Under the pieces are notes generated by a model that did not search any database, had not been told where the DNA came from, and saw only the letters and a list, made by a program, of their open reading frames with translations. A program made the translations under genes and the position numbers. This document shows, one piece after another, positions 24,565-57,206 of a stretch of 64,000 nt of DNA (the first letter of the stretch is position 1; the number at the start of each line of letters is the position of its first letter). Source of the stretch: Acidiphilium sp. PA (GTDB lineage Bacteria > Pseudomonadota > Alphaproteobacteria > Acetobacterales > Acetobacteraceae); the NCBI RefSeq assembly GCF_026191915.1, contig NZ_JAIMBY010000001.1:248001-312000 (forward strand), given 5' to 3'.

Positions 24565-25602
24565 ATGAGTCTGAGGCAGACATTGGATCATCCCCGCATC
24601 GGCCGCAGGGCCGGGGGCGGCGATGACGAATCGGCGTCGGTGACGCACGATCTCGCGGTTGCGCGCGATGTGCTGAGCACCGAGGCGGATGCGTTGAAAG
24701 CACTGGCCGGCACGCTGGGTAGCGGCTTCTCGGCCACGGTTTCGCTGCTGCACGAAGCGGGCGGCCGGGTGGTGGTGACCGGCATGGGCAAATCCGGCCA
24801 TGTCGCCCGCAAGATCGCGGCGACCCTGGCCTCCACCGGCACCCCTGCCCTGTTCGTGCATCCGGCGGAGGCGAGCCATGGCGATCTCGGCATGATCGTG
24901 CCAGGCGATGTGGTGCTGGCCCTGTCCAATTCCGGTGAAGCGGCGGAACTTGCCGACATCGTGACCCATGCCCGGCGGTTCGCGCTGCCGCTGATTGCGA
25001 TCACCGGGCGCGCCGACAGCACGCTGGCACGGGCGGCGACACAGGTGCTGCTGCTGCCGAACGCGCCGGAGGCCGGGCCGATCGGCCTGGCGCCGACCAC
25101 CAGCACGACCATGCAGATGGCGCTGGGCGATGCGCTGGCGGTGACGCTGCTGTGCCGGCGCGGCTTTACCGCGGCGGATTTTTCCTCGTTCCATCCCGGC
25201 GGCAAGCTCGGCGCCCGGCTCAAGCGGGTGAGCGATCTGATGCACACCGGCGCCGCAATCCCGCTCGCCGGGCCCGAGACCACCATGGACCGGGCGATCC
25301 TGCTGATCACCGAAAAGCATTTCGGCTGCCTCGGCATCGTCGATCCCGAGGGCAGGCTGCTCGGCATCGTGACCGATGGCGATATGCGCCGCGCCATGGG
25401 GCCGGATTTCCTGAACCGGCGGGCGGATGCCATCATGACGCGCACACCCCGCGTGATCGATGCGGCGGCACTCGCCGAGGACGCGCTGCACGACATGACG
25501 GCGCTGGACCCCAAGGTGATGTCGCTGTTCGTGGTCGATGCGGCGCGGCGCGTGATCGGGATCGTGCATATGCATGACCTGCTGCGCGCCGGGGTGGCGT
25601 GA
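24565..25602 (+). CDS. kdsD: Arabinose-5-phosphate isomerase
   Basis: Converts ribulose-5-P to arabinose-5-P, the first step towards Kdo. 345 aa. SIS domain with VVVTGMGKSGHVARKIAATLASTGTPALFVHPAEASHGDLGMI and ALSNSGEAAEL, followed by SSFHPGGKLG, then two CBS domains (ITEKHFGCLGIVDPEGRLLGIVTDGDMRR and SLFVVDAARRVIGIVHMHDLLRAG). The N terminus is about 25 residues longer than in E. coli. Its TGA overlaps a GTG start of lptC. With kdsB at 8.8 kb it covers two Kdo steps. Confidence 0.95.
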   Translation: MSLRQTLDHPRIGRRAGGGDDESASVTHDLAVARDVLSTEADALKALAGTLGSGFSATVSLLHEAGGRVVVTGMGKSGHVARKIAATLASTGTPALFVHPAEASHGDLGMIVPGDVVLALSNSGEAAELADIVTHARRFALPLIAITGRADSTLARAATQVLLLPNAPEAGPIGLAPTTSTTMQMALGDALAVTLLCRRGFTAADFSSFHPGGKLGARLKRVSDLMHTGAAIPLAGPETTMDRAILLITEKHFGCLGIVDPEGRLLGIVTDGDMRRAMGPDFLNRRADAIMTRTPRVIDAAALAEDALHDMTALDPKVMSLFVVDAARRVIGIVHMHDLLRAGVA

Positions 25603-26348
25603 GCATGACCCCGCCGATCGCACCCGAACGCGCTGGCGGCCCCGCCGATGCGCACAGCGACAAAAAACCGGGCTCGCTGTTGACCAGCGAGGGGATCATG
25701 GCGGCGCTGAGCCGCACGCGCGAAGAACAGCGCGCCGTGCTCAGGCGCCACCGCCGCACGGTGTCGATCTTCAAATACACGCTGCCGGCGGTCGCCGCCG
25801 TGCTGATCACGGCGCTCGCCGTGTTTCCGAATCTGCGCAATGGCGCCGCGATCGGCCGGATTTCGTACAAGAAACAGGCGGTTGCGGCCGGCACACCGCT
25901 CTCGCGCATGAGCGCGGCGCGGTATCGCGGCGTGGATGCGCAGGGCGAGAAATTCACCATCACGGCGCGGCGGGTCATCCAGGTCACGCAGGACCGGCTG
26001 AACCTGGTGGCGCCGAAGGGCGATCTGACCACCAAAGCCGGCAACTGGCTGATGCTGAACGCGCGCCGCGGCCTGTATCACCAGAACAGCCAGTTGCTCG
26101 ACCTCGCCGGCAAGGTGACGCTGTACCGCCAGGACGGCACGGTTCTGCACACCAGCCGCGCCGCGATCGATATCAAGGGCGGCTCGGCCAAGGGCTCCGA
26201 TCCGGTCAGGGCGTTCGGGCCGTTCGGCACGCTGCACGCGCAGGACGGCTTCGTTGCGACCAATCATGGCAGTGATATTCTGTTCAAGGGCGCTTCGCAC
26301 GTGGTGCTTGATCAGGTCGCGGTTCCGGCCGTTGGAGGCGGATCGTGA
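25599..26348 (+). CDS. lptC: LPS export protein LptC
   Basis: Bitopic inner-membrane protein that hands lipopolysaccharide from LptB2FG to LptA. 249 aa from the GTG at 25599 (overlapping kdsD); an ATG two codons later is possible. A cytoplasmic N terminus of about 55 residues precedes one TM helix (about 58-80, TLPAVAAVLITALAVFPNL). The periplasmic beta-jellyroll has GVDAQGEKFTITARRVIQ, LNLVAPKGDLTTKAGNWLMLNARRGLY and LDLAGKVTLYRQDG. Followed with overlap by the lptA frame. Confidence 0.9.
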   Translation: MSMTPPIAPERAGGPADAHSDKKPGSLLTSEGIMAALSRTREEQRAVLRRHRRTVSIFKYTLPAVAAVLITALAVFPNLRNGAAIGRISYKKQAVAAGTPLSRMSAARYRGVDAQGEKFTITARRVIQVTQDRLNLVAPKGDLTTKAGNWLMLNARRGLYHQNSQLLDLAGKVTLYRQDGTVLHTSRAAIDIKGGSAKGSDPVRAFGPFGTLHAQDGFVATNHGSDILFKGASHVVLDQVAVPAVGGGS

Positions 26349-26356
26349 CGGTGAGG

Positions 26357-26496
26357 CAAGGCAAGGACTGCTTTTTTGTAAAAAAGCAGCAAAAAACTTT
26401 TGTTAATCTGGGCCATGGGCGGTTGCACCAGCACGGACTGATGGTTGAAAAGTTTTTTTGCTTCTTTTTTTCCAAAAAAAGAAGTGCTTCCTTCCT
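26357..26496. repeat. A/T hairpin repeat, long form (copy 2, inside lptA 5' end)
   Basis: Left hairpin CTGCTTTTTT/AAAAAAGCAG (26368-26389) with AAAAAACTTT after it. The core is diverged (GGGCCATGGGCGGTTGCACC). The right half has AAAAGTTTTTTTGCTTC and TTTTTTTCC/AAAAAAAGAAG. The left stem differs from other copies but stays fully paired. Unlike the others it lies in an open reading frame: it separates lptC from the conserved part of lptA and is translated if lptA starts at 26345 or 26441. Confidence 0.8.
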
Positions 26497-27424
26497 TCTC
26501 TTTTTTACCTGCGCAGCACCCCTGGCCGCCCAGGCCCAATCCCTCGGCTTCGGCGGCGGCTCCGGCCCGACGCCGGTGCCGATCAACATCACTGCGAGCA
26601 ACGGCATCGCCTGGAACCAGACGGCGCACACCGTGACCGCGATGGGCAACGCCCAGGCAGTGCGCGGCAAGGTGACGGTGACGGCGGATCAACTGGTCGC
26701 GCATTATCAGCCGAAATCGGGCACCACGCCGCCCGCGACCAAACCCGCCGCGACCGATGGCGGGCTGGGCGGGCTCGATTCCGGCTCGTCGCAGATCACG
26801 CAGCTCGATGCGGTCGGCAATGTGCATATTTTCACCGCGACCGATCAGGCGTTCGGGGATCTGGCGGTGTTTCACATGGACCGGCACGAACTGGTTCTGA
26901 CCGGCAAGCACCTGAAGCTGACGACGCCGACCGATACGGTGACGGCGCGCGATCAGATCCAGTATTGGTCGCAGGCGCGCAAGGCCGTCGCGATCGGCAA
27001 CGCGCTGATCGTGACGAACGACCACCGATCGATCGCGGCGGATACGCTGACCGGCTATTTCATCGCGGCCGCGGCGCCGGGCGTCGCCGCGGCGAAACCA
27101 TCGTCCGATCCGGACGATCAGGCGAGCAAGCTGCGCAAGGTCGTCGCGGTCGGGCATGTGGTGGTGCGGACGGCGACCGACATCGCGACCGGCGAGCACG
27201 GCGTGTATCATCCGGCGACCGGCATCGCGATTTTGACAGGTGACGTGCATATCACGCGTGGACCGAACGAATTGGCGGGGCAGCGCGGTCAGGTGAACAT
27301 GAAAACCGGTATCGCGACCCTGATGGCGACCAAGGGCCATCGCGTCGAGGGCATGGTGCTGCCGAATTCCGCCCCTGGGCCTGCCGCGAAGTCGCCGCAA
27401 TCTGCGCGGAAACCGGGATCATGA
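26441..27424 (+). CDS. lptA: LPS transport periplasmic protein LptA
   Basis: Periplasmic bridge protein that carries lipopolysaccharide to the outer membrane. The beta-jellyroll is seen as ITASNGIAWNQTAHTVTAMGNAQAVRGKVTVTADQLVAHY, later QLDAVGNVHIFTATDQAFGD and ITGDVHITRG-like strands. It is longer than E. coli LptA (327 aa from 26441), with a Pro/Ala-rich insert near residue 90. The signal peptide is unusual: MVEKFFCFFFSKKRSAS then LLFFTCAAPLAAQAQ, its first part encoded by the A/T hairpin repeat. A GTG at 26345 overlapping lptC is in frame but would place 32 extra residues before this signal. lptB overlaps the end by four bases. Confidence 0.85.
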   Translation: MVEKFFCFFFSKKRSASFLLFFTCAAPLAAQAQSLGFGGGSGPTPVPINITASNGIAWNQTAHTVTAMGNAQAVRGKVTVTADQLVAHYQPKSGTTPPATKPAATDGGLGGLDSGSSQITQLDAVGNVHIFTATDQAFGDLAVFHMDRHELVLTGKHLKLTTPTDTVTARDQIQYWSQARKAVAIGNALIVTNDHRSIAADTLTGYFIAAAAPGVAAAKPSSDPDDQASKLRKVVAVGHVVVRTATDIATGEHGVYHPATGIAILTGDVHITRGPNELAGQRGQVNMKTGIATLMATKGHRVEGMVLPNSAPGPAAKSPQSARKPGS

Positions 27425-28212
27425 ACGAGCAATCGCGCGTCAGCGAGGGCGGCTACCGCGAGCCGGCCGGCATGATTTCGACGCCATCGGGCGCGGGACT
27501 GGTCGCGACCGGTCTTGGCAAGAGTTTTCGCAAGCGCCCGGTTGTGCGCAACGTGTCGGTCACGCTGCGGCGCGGTGAGGTGGTGGGACTGCTGGGGCCG
27601 AACGGCGCGGGCAAGACCACGACGTTCTACATGATCGTCGGGCTGATCCAGCCGGACACCGGCTCGATCGTGCTGGATGGCGCGGATATCTCGACCTTGC
27701 CGATGTATCGCCGCGCCCGCCTCGGGGTTGGCTACCTGCCGCAGGAGGCGAGCGTGTTTCGCGGCCTGACGGTTGAGCAGAACATCATGGCGGCGCTGGA
27801 AGTGGTCGAGCACGACCGCGACCGGCGCGATGCGATGCTGACTGAATTGCTGGCGGAATTCAGCATTCTGCACCTGCGGCGCACCCCGGCCATTGCGCTG
27901 TCGGGCGGTGAGCGCCGCCGGGTGGAAATCGCCCGTGCGCTGGCCACCGGCCCCAGCTACATTCTGCTCGACGAACCGCTGGCCGGGATCGATCCCATCG
28001 CGGTCGGCGAGATCCGTGACATGGTGACCCAGTTGAAAGACCGCGGTCTTGGCGTGGTTATTACCGACCATAATGTGCGCGAGACGCTCGAAGTGATCGA
28101 CCGGGCCTATATTCTGCACGACGGGCAGGTTTTGATGGAGGGTCTGCCGGATGAGGTCGTGGCGCATCCGGATGTGCGGCGCGTTTATCTCGGGGATCGG
28201 TTTATTCTGTAA
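27421..28212 (+). CDS. lptB: LPS export ABC transporter ATPase LptB
   Basis: Cytoplasmic ATPase that powers LPS extraction by LptFG. 263 aa with an N-terminal extension of about 25 residues. Walker A GLLGPNGAGKTTTFYMIVGL, Q-loop YLPQEASVFRGLTVEQN, signature ALSGGERRRVEIARAL, Walker B YILLDEPLAGIDP and switch His ITDHNVRETL are all intact. ATG overlaps the lptA stop. LptF and LptG are not in the window. A single A/T hairpin repeat with trailing T residues follows at once and probably terminates the operon. Confidence 0.97.
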   Translation: MNEQSRVSEGGYREPAGMISTPSGAGLVATGLGKSFRKRPVVRNVSVTLRRGEVVGLLGPNGAGKTTTFYMIVGLIQPDTGSIVLDGADISTLPMYRRARLGVGYLPQEASVFRGLTVEQNIMAALEVVEHDRDRRDAMLTELLAEFSILHLRRTPAIALSGGERRRVEIARALATGPSYILLDEPLAGIDPIAVGEIRDMVTQLKDRGLGVVITDHNVRETLEVIDRAYILHDGQVLMEGLPDEVVAHPDVRRVYLGDRFIL

Positions 28213-28253
28213 AAGAAGGGTTCTTTTTTGCAAAAAAGAACCAAAAAACTTTT
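28213..28253. repeat. A/T hairpin repeat, short form (copy 3)
   Basis: GGTTCTTTTTT/AAAAAAGAACC (28219-28242) flanked by GAAG and AAAAAACTTTT. It lies between the convergent lptB and aspartic protease genes, where it can terminate both. The GGTTC/GAACC stem replaces the GCTTC/GAAGC of other copies with pairing kept. Confidence 0.85.
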
Positions 28254-42422: not shown

Positions 42423-42560
42423 AAGGGAAGGCTTCTTTTTTGAAAAAAAGAAGCAAAAAACTTTCTGACTCTGAGGCACGGGCGTTTTCACCGGCACTGG
42501 CCCAAATTAACAAAGTTTTTTTTGCTTCTTTTTTGTTCACAAAAAAGAAGACTCTTCCCT
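42423..42560. repeat. A/T hairpin repeat, long form (copy 5)
   Basis: Begins GGGAAGGCTTCTTTTTT/AAAAAAAGAAGC and ends CTTCTTTTTTGT/ACAAAAAAGAAG, with the core CTGAGGCACGGGCGTTTTCACC. Same orientation as copy 4 and very close to it and to the inverse of copy 1. Lies between pncA and asmA. Confidence 0.88.
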
Positions 42561-42630
42561 CCTCTCCCTTTCTCCGAAGTTCCCGCCCCAGGGGTCGCAC
42601 AGAACCGCCCGGTCTGATACCAGCGCGCGC

Positions 42631-54585: not shown

Positions 54586-54649
54586 GGGTAAGTGTAAACC
54601 ATGGTCGGTGGGGGGTGAGAAAGGAAAAAGTCAGGGAAGGAAGGAAGAA

Positions 54650-54694
54650 AGGAAGCGCTTCTTTTTTGTAAAAAAGAAGCAAAAAACTTTTGTT
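54650..54694. repeat. A/T hairpin repeat, short form (copy 6)
   Basis: GCTTCTTTTTT/AAAAAAGAAGC (54657-54680) preceded by GGAAGC and followed by AAAAAACTTTTGTT. It lies between marR (ends at 54739) and paralogue B, both on the minus strand. On the minus strand the ordering suits a terminator for marR. Confidence 0.85.
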
Positions 54695-54738
54695 GGTTTT
54701 TCAGGGCGTGCGGGGGCGTTGGGCGGGATTGGTCGGTG

Positions 54739-55179
54739 TTACGGGAGATCGACCTGTTTCGCGCTGGCGGCTTCCATCATCGACAGAAGATTTTTCAATT
54801 CGGGACCGATCCGCTCGATTTCCGCCAGATGGATGCTGGATAAGACCGCCAGGCGGGCTTCGCCCTGCTCTGTCAGGCTCAACCGGACACGCCGGCGATC
54901 GGCCGTGTCGTCCCCGCGCGTGACATACCCCGCGCGCACCAGGCGATCCACCAGCTCCACCGTGCTGTTGTGATGGAGGATCAAAAAGCCCGCCAGATCG
55001 GCAATGCTGGCGCCCCCGGTGTTTTGTGCCGTCTTGATACCCAGCAACGCTTGATGCTGGCGCGGCGTAAGCCCCGCGTCCCGCGCGGCGGTTTCGCTGA
55101 AAGTCAGAAACTGGCGCAGTGCGAAGCGGAACGCCGCAAGGGTTTGATAGTCCTGATCGGTCAAATGCGGCTCGGGCAT
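54739..55179 (-). CDS. MarR-family transcriptional regulator
   Basis: 146 aa. Winged-helix: LTPRQHQALLGIKTAQNTGGASIADLAGFLILHHNSTVELVDRLVRAGYVTRGDDTADRRRVRLSLTEQG, with the DxR wing motif intact, and dimerisation helices at both ends. Divergent from the ClC channel gene; a palindrome in the gap is the likely operator, so it probably controls itself and the channel. The inducing signal is unknown. Confidence 0.92.
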   Translation of the reverse strand: MPEPHLTDQDYQTLAAFRFALRQFLTFSETAARDAGLTPRQHQALLGIKTAQNTGGASIADLAGFLILHHNSTVELVDRLVRAGYVTRGDDTADRRRVRLSLTEQGEARLAVLSSIHLAEIERIGPELKNLLSMMEAASAKQVDLP

Positions 55180-55214
55180 GGCTGTGTCTTAGCGCATCGG
55201 AGAACACCGTTGAA

Positions 55215-55235
55215 ATATATCGTGATCCGATATAT
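55215..55235. promoter_or_regulatory. Probable MarR operator
   Basis: ATATATCG-TGATC-CGATATAT, a perfect 8-bp inverted repeat with a 5-base spacer, in the 96-bp gap between marR and the ClC gene. Length and symmetry suit a MarR dimer. Confidence 0.65.
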
Positions 55236-55275
55236 AGGGCCGCACAACTCACGCCCTGATCGAGATTCGCGCCGC

Positions 55276-57099
55276 ATGAAAACCACCGTCAGACCGCCCG
55301 CCGGCATCAAGGCCCTGGGCGATTTCACGACCGACTGCCGGTTGTTTCCCCTGTCCGCGCTCGCGCTGTTGGCCGGTACGTTCGGCGTTCTGGCCGGCTG
55401 GGTCCTGCTGCGGATGATCGGGCTGATCAACGATCTGGTCTATTACGGCGTCTGGTCGACCAGGATGCTGCCGGCGGGCGGGATGCTGCACCACGGTCAT
55501 CCGGCGGCGTGGACGATCCTGATTCCGGCCGGCGGTGCGGTGATCATCGGCATCATGGCGCGCTATGGGTCAGAGAAAATCCGCGGTCATGGCATCCCCG
55601 AAGCGATCGAGGCGATCATGCTCGGCGGTTCGAAACTCGACCTCAAGGTCGCGATCCTCAAACCGGTTTCCTCGGCCATTTCGATCGGCACCGGCGGTCC
55701 GTTTGGTGCCGAGGGCCCGATCATCATGACGGGCGGGGCCGCCGCCTCGCTGATGGCTCAATGCTTTTCCCTGACCGACGCCGAGCGCAAGACCCTGCTG
55801 GTCGCCGGCGCCTGCGCGGGCATGACGGCGGTGTTCGGAACCCCTGTGGCAGCAATCCTGCTCGCGATCGAGCTGCTGCTGTTCGAGCTCAAGCCGCGCA
55901 GCGTGGTGCCGGTGTCGGTCGCGTGCATTACCGCTGCGATCGAGCGCCGTTTCATTCTTACCCCGGCACCGCTGTTTCCCTACACGGGGTCCGTCACGAT
56001 CGATCCGCTGCACGCGCTCGGCTGGGTCGGGCTGGGACTGGCGGCCGGCCTCGGTTCGGCGCTGCTGACCAGCATGGTGTACGGCGCGGAGGATCATTTT
56101 GAAAAATTGCCGATCCATTGGATGTGGTGGCCCGTGCTTGGCGGCATCGTGGTCGGCATCGGCGGCATGATCGACCCCGCGGCGCTCGGCGTCGGCTATC
56201 CTGATATCGCCCGTCTGCTGGCCGGCACGTTGATGGGCGCGGCGGCGGTGCGGCTCCTTCTGGTCAAGGCGGTGATCTGGGCGATCGCGCTGGGTTCGGG
56301 TACATCGGGCGGTGTGCTGGCGCCGCTGCTGATCATGGGCGGTGCGCTGGGTGCGGTCGCCGCGCCGGTCCTGCCGCATGCCGCACCCGGCTTCTGGGCC
56401 GTGGCCGGCATGGCGGCCATGATGGGTGGCACGATGCGCGCGCCCCTGACATCCACATTGTTTGCCGTCGAACTGACGGGCAGCCATCTCATTCTTCTGC
56501 CCGTCATCACGGCCAGCATGGCCAGCATGGCCGTGACCGTGCTGCTGATGAAACGCTCGATCCTGACCGAAAAAATCGCCCGGCGTGGCCATCATTTGAC
56601 ACGCGAGTACAGTATCGACCCGCTGGCGGTGGCGCGGGTGGGCGATATCATGGCTTCGCCCGCCGAGACCCTGGCCTCGGACCTGACGGTTGGTGCCGCC
56701 ATCGATTTCTTCCTGAGCATGGAGGCGCGGCACCGCGCCTACCCGGTGACCGACGAAGCGGGTCGGCCGGTTGGCCTGGTGTCGCGCGCCGATATTCTGA
56801 CCTGGATCGGCGGCGGCGCGCCGCGCGACATGCTGCTTGCCACGGCGACCGCAACCCGCCCCCTGGTGACCGCGTGGACCGGTGAAATGGCGATCACGGT
56901 GGCCGCGCGCATGATCGGGGACGATGCGCCGCGCATTCCCGTGATCGACGATGCCGGCCGCCTGTGCGGCATCGTCTCCCGCGCCGATCTGCTCAGGGTG
57001 CATCATCGCATCGTCGCGTCCGAAACCAGACGCGACCGCTTTTTCATGCGCCGGGCCAAAAACGCGCGCGACCCCGCCTTCACAGATGCGCGCATGTGA
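55276..57099 (+). CDS. ClC-type chloride channel/antiporter with CBS pair
   Basis: 607 aa. ClC core of about 420 residues with the selectivity motifs GHGIPEAIEAIM (GSGIP-like), GGPFGAEGPIIMTGG (GxEGP with the gating Glu) and GSGTSGGVLAPLLIMGG (GxFxP-like). Two CBS domains follow: GDIMASPAETLASDLTVGAAIDFFL and AITVAARMIGDDAPRIPVIDDAGRLCGIVSRADLLRVHH. Membrane Cl- transport, perhaps H+-coupled for acid resistance. Whether it is a channel or antiporter cannot be set; the proton Glu of E. coli ClcA is not obvious. Start at 55276 because the longer frame overlaps marR. Confidence 0.9.
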   Translation: MKTTVRPPAGIKALGDFTTDCRLFPLSALALLAGTFGVLAGWVLLRMIGLINDLVYYGVWSTRMLPAGGMLHHGHPAAWTILIPAGGAVIIGIMARYGSEKIRGHGIPEAIEAIMLGGSKLDLKVAILKPVSSAISIGTGGPFGAEGPIIMTGGAAASLMAQCFSLTDAERKTLLVAGACAGMTAVFGTPVAAILLAIELLLFELKPRSVVPVSVACITAAIERRFILTPAPLFPYTGSVTIDPLHALGWVGLGLAAGLGSALLTSMVYGAEDHFEKLPIHWMWWPVLGGIVVGIGGMIDPAALGVGYPDIARLLAGTLMGAAAVRLLLVKAVIWAIALGSGTSGGVLAPLLIMGGALGAVAAPVLPHAAPGFWAVAGMAAMMGGTMRAPLTSTLFAVELTGSHLILLPVITASMASMAVTVLLMKRSILTEKIARRGHHLTREYSIDPLAVARVGDIMASPAETLASDLTVGAAIDFFLSMEARHRAYPVTDEAGRPVGLVSRADILTWIGGGAPRDMLLATATATRPLVTAWTGEMAITVAARMIGDDAPRIPVIDDAGRLCGIVSRADLLRVHHRIVASETRRDRFFMRRAKNARDPAFTDARM

Positions 57100-57206
57100 G
57101 ACGATTTCCGCCACGGTTCATTTCGGACCCAGACGCGCTCATATTCGACAGCCTGATAACGCGCCCGGGACTCAACGAAGCCGCGCGGCGGTTTGCGCCT
57201 GATATA

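Follow-up and report, generated by a model that had tools for sequence, protein, structure and literature searches.

In the acid-loving bacterium Acidiphilium sp. PA, the 5' end of lptA carries a full, in-frame copy of a short palindromic repeat. We consider it probable, at about three chances in four, that this copy was inserted in frame between the start codon and n-region of the LptA signal peptide and its hydrophobic core, that translation begins at the native GTG (26345..26347, + strand), and that LptA is exported by Sec with a 64-residue leader that is then cleaved. All coordinates without a locus name refer to the window, the whole 64-kb stretch of the Acidiphilium sp. PA genome that was analyzed (C1:248001-312000 of genome G000).

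The operon encodes, in this order, a SIS/CBS protein, lptC (25599..26348, +; Pfam LptC), lptA (26345..27424, +; an open reading frame of 359 aa, Pfam LptD_N/OstA) and lptB (27421..28212, +; Pfam ABC_tran, named from its place in the operon). A search of the genome with the PF03968 profile returned lptA and only one other gene, a 747-aa open frame that we take to be LptD, showing that lptA is present in a single copy.

The repeat unit is about 140 bp long and consists of two A/T-rich hairpins in inverted orientation flanking a GC-rich middle. In lptA the bipartite element extends from 26354 to 26496 (+; outer ends approximate), as aligned with other copies and with the unit found at the same site in A. 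rubrum. Its left arm (26368..26389, +) has a 10-bp A/T-rich stem with a GT loop (stems CTGCTTTTTT/AAAAAAGCAG), and its right arm (26461..26484, +), in inverted orientation, has an 11-bp stem with a CC loop (stems CTTCTTTTTTT/AAAAAAAGAAG); the two are 83% complementary over 30 nt. The middle (about 26402..26448, +) holds most of the substitutions relative to A. rubrum. The first-pass annotation had described a hairpin repeat between lptC and lptA at the point where lptA should start. The repeat is indeed there, but it is a bipartite unit of two hairpins and a middle rather than a single hairpin, and it falls within the open frame of lptA, which begins upstream at GTG 26345.

Units extracted from 89 bipartite copies, 48 from stretches of the Acidiphilium sp. 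PA genome and 41 from A. rubrum, measured 133-140 bp, and many had GGAAG/CTTCC-like outer ends. RNAalifold analysis of 76 copies recovered just the two hairpins, with compensatory changes among copies at the base of the left stem, so we rejected a cloverleaf fold of the whole element with a paired middle and an outer stem. With orientation fixed (81 of the 89 elements), the native middle folded no better than swapped halves (-13.09 vs -13.63), and with orientation likewise fixed the outer ends paired barely better than swapped controls (-11.66 vs -11.20, sd 0.31). In one orthologous pair (42423-42561 and A. rubrum L142:15941-16078), the two middle loops read TTTTCACC and CTGAAACC. They differ in part as though by inversion, a possible sign of template switching at the palindrome.

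The repeat is abundant. The left-arm pattern matched the 4.54-Mb genome 222 times with up to 3 mismatches (123 forward, 99 reverse), while the same pattern read backwards gave no match in that genome, which confirms the repeat at 26357-26496 as real. The window holds 8 arm matches belonging to 7 elements. At the same 3-mismatch threshold, arm counts among the 13 Acidiphilium genomes were 222 in Acidiphilium sp. PA (G000), 266 in A. rubrum (G005, also locus L031), 198 in G002, 124 in G001, 33 in G012, 9 in G008 and 6 in G006, and the remaining six genomes had 0 or 1 match each. The arm (up to 2 mismatches) was found in 44 of 150 genomes sampled from the family (taken as Acetobacteraceae), representing 33 of 102 genera, and controls were found in none; the highest counts were in two genomes of other genera, G092 (1023 matches) and G139 (548). 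An Rfam scan of the window yielded only a tRNA, the element having no match at the gathering threshold.

Most copies lie outside genes. Of 122 arm matches in Acidiphilium sp. PA, 6 were inside called genes and 13 partly so. Gene 3' ends facing an element were within 30 nt of it in 58 of 98 cases, and gene 5' ends in 22 of 78. One single-arm copy (28219..28252, +), common to A. rubrum, sits directly 3' of the lptB stop codon. Elsewhere in the window, a 2.6-kb segment with one open gene of 709 aa (54625-57206) has a single arm on either side, the two in opposite orientations (54661, +, and 57237, -); A. rubrum has about 100 bp in its place with both sides aligning, a possible gain or loss between repeats.

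The nearest named genome is that of A. rubrum ATCC 35905, whose LptA is 93-94% identical and whose lptA bears the insertion at the same site with the frame intact. Of the 13 Acidiphilium genomes, 11 yielded an lptA orthologue; the search returned element matches only in G001 and nothing in G011. The element was at the 5' end of lptA in Acidiphilium sp. PA and A. rubrum only, and the nine other lptA genes were without it (G002, G003, G004, G006 [L059], G007, G008, G009, G010 and G012 [L032]). Similarly, 29 of 30 named loci had no arm 300 bases or less from where the match begins, A. rubrum being the exception. In the nine empty relatives, the lptA start codon overlaps or touches the lptC stop and a hydrophobic leader follows immediately; the six leaders that were scored (all but those of G007, G008 and G009) have 20-31 residues and end in AxA/Q, the slash marking cleavage. 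The empty sites are highly diverged, and the ends of the insert are A/G-rich where a target duplication was sought by eye. The N-terminus of LptA thus differs where the repeat is absent; an identical N-terminus in such relatives, which the first-pass annotation had named as evidence against its proposal, was not observed. From this distribution, the insertion probably arose in a common ancestor with A. rubrum, after the split from the other sampled Acidiphilium.

Two in-frame start codons deserve consideration. The GTG at 26345 overlaps the lptC stop codon (GTGA), in line with the overlapping or adjacent starts of the nine insert-free relatives, and is preceded by a Shine-Dalgarno-like GGAGG (26334..26338, +) located 6 nt upstream. 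Taken alone, this site is weak evidence for a start because just 18 of the 43 called genes of the window show at least 4 bases of Shine-Dalgarno match and because A. rubrum reads GGGGG at this position. The second candidate, the start originally proposed, is an ATG inside the element (26441..26443, +), and no 4-base Shine-Dalgarno match lies upstream of it in either species. If LptA started there, the repeat would supply the start codon and an n-region of about 17 residues, and 26345-26440 would be an untranslated spacer. This alternative draws on the conservation of the in-frame ATG in A. rubrum, on the ordinary length of the resulting leader (32 aa, with a net charge of +3 before the core), and on a PMT-family gene of another genus that seems to begin at an ATG in the middle of an element.

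The pattern of substitutions speaks against it. Between the GTG and the ATG, differences from A. rubrum were distributed 1, 1 and 7 by codon position (binomial P = 0.008 for 7 of 9). The two from the ATG to the end of the element (0, 2 and 0) were both at second positions and count the other way. Over the same middle region as was used for controls, 6 of 9 substitutions in lptA fell in its phase (P = 0.042), whereas 16 other orthologous element middles exhibited no codon phase; for the 7 that had 5 or more substitutions, P was no lower than 0.1 in any frame. With as few as nine substitutions, this third-position bias is suggestive of translation from GTG 26345. Conservation of the frame was set aside as weak evidence since 9 of 15 bipartite pairs, including the lptA pair, had no indels; in that comparison, 37 orthologous pairs were aligned (2 more were skipped) and 15 were classed as bipartite by script. 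Given that the native overlapping GTG with its GGAGG has been kept, that no such match precedes the ATG, and that third positions account for 7 of the 9 substitutions between the two codons, a start at ATG 26441 is unlikely. The GTG is probably the start of LptA, and the ATG is probably internal.

Translation from the GTG would yield a leader of 64 codons (26345..26536, +). The native GTGA start is followed by the whole element and then by the native core and AQA/QSLGF, so that the n-region is mostly encoded by the element while the h-region (26495-26527) is native. The hydrophobic core had been quoted as AAPLAAQAQ and placed outside the repeat; it is native, but it is longer, reading LLFFTCAAPLA followed by AQA/Q. 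Of the 43-45 or so residues added, many are basic or aromatic. The leader displays the features of a Sec signal, with a net charge of +3 in the 12 residues preceding the core, a core hydrophobicity of 2.08 and an AQA motif. Like the core of A. rubrum (2.30), this core is less hydrophobic than those of the six scored relatives (2.47-3.47; 10-residue Kyte-Doolittle).

LptA is needed in bacteria that bear lipopolysaccharide. Past the element, the first in-frame ATG, GTG or TTG is codon 78, in the mature part. Because lptA is present in a single copy and the next start lies within the mature part, the only LptA of the cell, if needed here, must be exported by a leader that holds repeat-encoded residues. 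The proposal that the repeat encodes part of the sole likely LptA export signal is therefore upheld.

We propose that a complete unit of this non-autonomous palindromic repeat entered lptA between the start codon and n-region and the hydrophobic core, with the frame kept. Ribosomes starting at the native GTG would most likely read through the repeat and produce a 64-residue leader with a long n-region rich in Lys, Arg and Phe. The native core LLFFTCAAPLA and the AQA/Q site would then direct LptA through Sec, and the leader would be cut off with all of its repeat-encoded residues, leaving mature LptA unchanged. The insertion may have survived because the frame was kept, because its arms encode basic and aromatic residues of the kind an n-region tolerates, and because the mature protein was unaffected.

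An alternative that we regard as improbable is that the element acts mainly as a regulator between lptC and lptA, as an attenuator, an RNA-processing site or an mRNA stabilizer, its coding role being incidental. The hairpin arms with their compensatory changes at the left stem foot would fit such a role, as would the 58 of 98 facing gene 3' ends located within 30 nt of an element, an arrangement reminiscent of transcribed REP-like repeats. However, no intrinsic terminator (a GC-rich stem with a T run) was found on the + strand at the element, and its fold energy did not stand out from that of shuffled sequences (z = -1.58), 16 of 200 of which folded as well; these results lend no support to the earlier suggestion of transcription attenuation. 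Furthermore, ribosomes would cross the element if the GTG is used. That the insert broke the leader of a decaying lptA, or is an assembly error, is hardly credible: the core is slightly less hydrophobic than those of the six relatives, but the same insert is present with an intact frame in the separate assembly of A. rubrum, and from codon 56 onward the substitutions between the two genes of this single-copy locus number 11, 6 and 50 by codon position, a strong third-position bias indicating that the rest of lptA has been under purifying selection since the insertion.

To look beyond lptA, we screened for arms fused in frame to signal-peptide-like N-termini at loci around the exact arm matches listed and at syntenic stretches, a sample of well-kept arms rather than of whole genomes (158 arms at 81 loci of G000, 141 at 65 of G005, 98 at 44 of G002, and, in other genera, 64 at 30 loci of G092 and 66 at 30 of G139). 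The screen flagged 31 rows (29 in the first four genomes and 2 in G139), of which 7 were kept by eye: lptA, L133, L210, L248, L285/L286 and L294. The others had a native start after the element, were weak, or were antisense, as judged by eye; the 66 arms at 30 loci of G139 gave no convincing case.

In a DUF2272 lipoprotein gene (L133:1564-2376; Pfam), both the TTG start and the n-region of the leader LKKRTKKLLLAGAVLLALSGC come from a single arm. Eight of the 13 Acidiphilium genomes have an orthologue. Acidiphilium sp. PA and A. rubrum have the arm intact. G012 has it in eroded form, with a local score of 21 where the best of 500 shuffles reached 12, and G001 and G002 may have kept a remnant (score 12 in each, compared with best shuffles of 11 and 9); no arm was seen by eye in G003, G004 and G010. 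Across five species (L133, L150-L154), from the perfect to the eroded arm, the TTG and the lipobox cysteine are equally far apart. An element also precedes a DUF2272 lipoprotein gene in G092, differently arranged.

A GDSL hydrolase gene (L248:504-1403, -; Pfam) carries a full unit in its signal peptide in both G001 and G002 (also L299 and L300). The unit lies between MRLVK, a short start of native-like sequence, and the native core ALLLAMLLPITAQA, giving a leader of 65 residues. No arm was found in this gene in the other 11 of the 13 Acidiphilium genomes, most of which have a short leader such as MLHRLLLCLALLLPVAAQA. By eye, the pair of sequences had no third-position bias in the element codons, which tells against the codon-phase argument made for lptA. 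In a PMT-family membrane protein of G092 (L294:1476-3029, +), the element encodes the cytoplasmic N-terminus that precedes the first helix, and the homologue in G013 (L323) also has an element-encoded N-terminus, here from an eroded element. These N-termini of two genera are apparently independent; the gene is in 14 of 20 genomes, and the comparison covers the 11 N-termini read (L322 and L324 were not found, and G162 was outside the reading). Outside the screen, the last 15-18 residues or so of a PEP-CTERM GDSL lipase (L109:1701-2783), a basic tail with the stop codon, are element sequence.

Other overlaps between genes and elements did not hold up. Longest-ORF starts inside elements, such as those of EutB and of a lyase (by Pfam), were judged by eye to have an ATG or other plausible start just past the element, and a BKACE enzyme (L295/L296) was discarded as a fusion since a native ATG lies downstream. 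Genes with called starts inside elements also included those of what we take to be a YchF-like and a cysteine-synthase-like protein. Among 282 merged elements (110 in G000, 100 in G005 and 72 in G002; many are shared by the first two genomes, which are not independent), none convincingly breaks a mature domain, by a test that requires the frame to be open and coding-like to either side. The weak candidates L112, L115 and L209, where both flanking frames are open and mildly coding, were set aside, the first two being antisense to strongly called genes. Still, lptA is not unique: the same repeat family appears to have done likewise in a few other exported or membrane proteins.

Short units of 133-140 bp, 222 arm matches, the lack of a transposase and terminal inverted repeats (arms 83% complementary) are features that the repeat shares with MITEs. 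Palindromic elements of Rickettsia (RPEs) were reportedly described by Ogata in 2000 and 2002. According to three reports, RPEs are palindromes of about 100-150 bp inserted in frame in conserved protein genes that are not destroyed, and orthologous genes of related species share insertion sites (PMC2229807, PMC10969869, PMC3767692). The genes for LptA and the GDSL hydrolase are likewise conserved and have an insertion that keeps the frame and is absent from other orthologues. There are also differences: RPEs occupy many conserved genes in a different host family, according to the same reports, whereas intragenic copies of the Acidiphilium repeat are rare and found mainly in N-terminal export or membrane signals. 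A report on Yersinia RU-2/YPAL places RU-2 at the N-terminus of YPO1552, a putative exported protein (Delihas 2007, PMC2759123). Here, in comparison, the gene is a single-copy lipopolysaccharide-transport gene, nine congeners have empty sites, and the repeat lies within the leader. RPEs and RU-2 are precedents for protein-coding palindromes.

The repeat shares traits with REP/BIME sequences associated with RAYT (PMC3733652), being present as hundreds of small palindromes, mostly intergenic and often just past stop codons. One arm, at about 35 bp, has the size of a REP, and a pair of inverted arms looks like a BIME. In contrast to the GTAG/CGTC families, the consensus lacks the tag, with CTTC at the arm foot (some copies read GTAG through stem changes). 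A RAYT gene (Y1_Tnp, PF01797) had no match in Acidiphilium sp. PA or in the element-rich G001 and G002; the 4 of 13 genomes with matches are the element-poor G007, G009 and G011 and the element-rich A. rubrum (one weak match, 26.7 bits). Mobilization as a REP by a Y1/RAYT enzyme is thus unsupported for Acidiphilium sp. PA. According to the REP survey, CGTC repeats are missing from Acetobacteraceae, and many repeats at gene starts are misannotations (PMC3733652). The tests for empty sites and for the lack of another start bear on this warning, and most overlaps here failed them. Coxiella QMITEs, too, are small repeats, and they lengthen or enter reading frames without shifting them; the main text of that report does not contain the terms signal peptide, signal sequence and N-termin- (PMC5896051). 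A literature search by title and start of abstract, with most subscription journals outside its scope, returned no account of the Acidiphilium repeat or of a repeat in lptA. What is new here is the host family and the repeat, a single-copy lipopolysaccharide-transport gene with empty sites, and the recurrence in export signals.

Tentatively, these observations suggest that an A/T-rich palindrome found across Acetobacteraceae has been a recurrent donor of n-regions for export signals, and that signal peptides are safe harbors in which its inserts persist and are gradually rewritten. Open frames of the arms would encode peptides rich in Lys/Arg and Phe/Leu, the hairpin loop in some cases offering a TTG start, and a cleavable leader may be the part of a gene that tolerates an insert of about 45 residues. 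Leaders would be the place where such inserts survive because the added residues are removed with the leader and the start context, the core and the cleavage site remain native. The gradual rewriting may be what the DUF2272 lipoprotein series displays, from a perfect to an eroded arm at constant length.

For genome annotation, the finding carries a warning in both directions, as most starts placed in such repeats looked false but a few look real, and trimming a real repeat-borne gene start would strip the protein of its signal peptide. The lptA gene offers a clean case, with empty sites in nine congeners and apparent parallels elsewhere, of a parasitic palindrome that is now part of the leader of a single-copy gene for outer-membrane biogenesis, a rare route for parasitic DNA into protein. 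It suggests a rule that can be tested across genomes: leaders may tolerate what mature domains do not.
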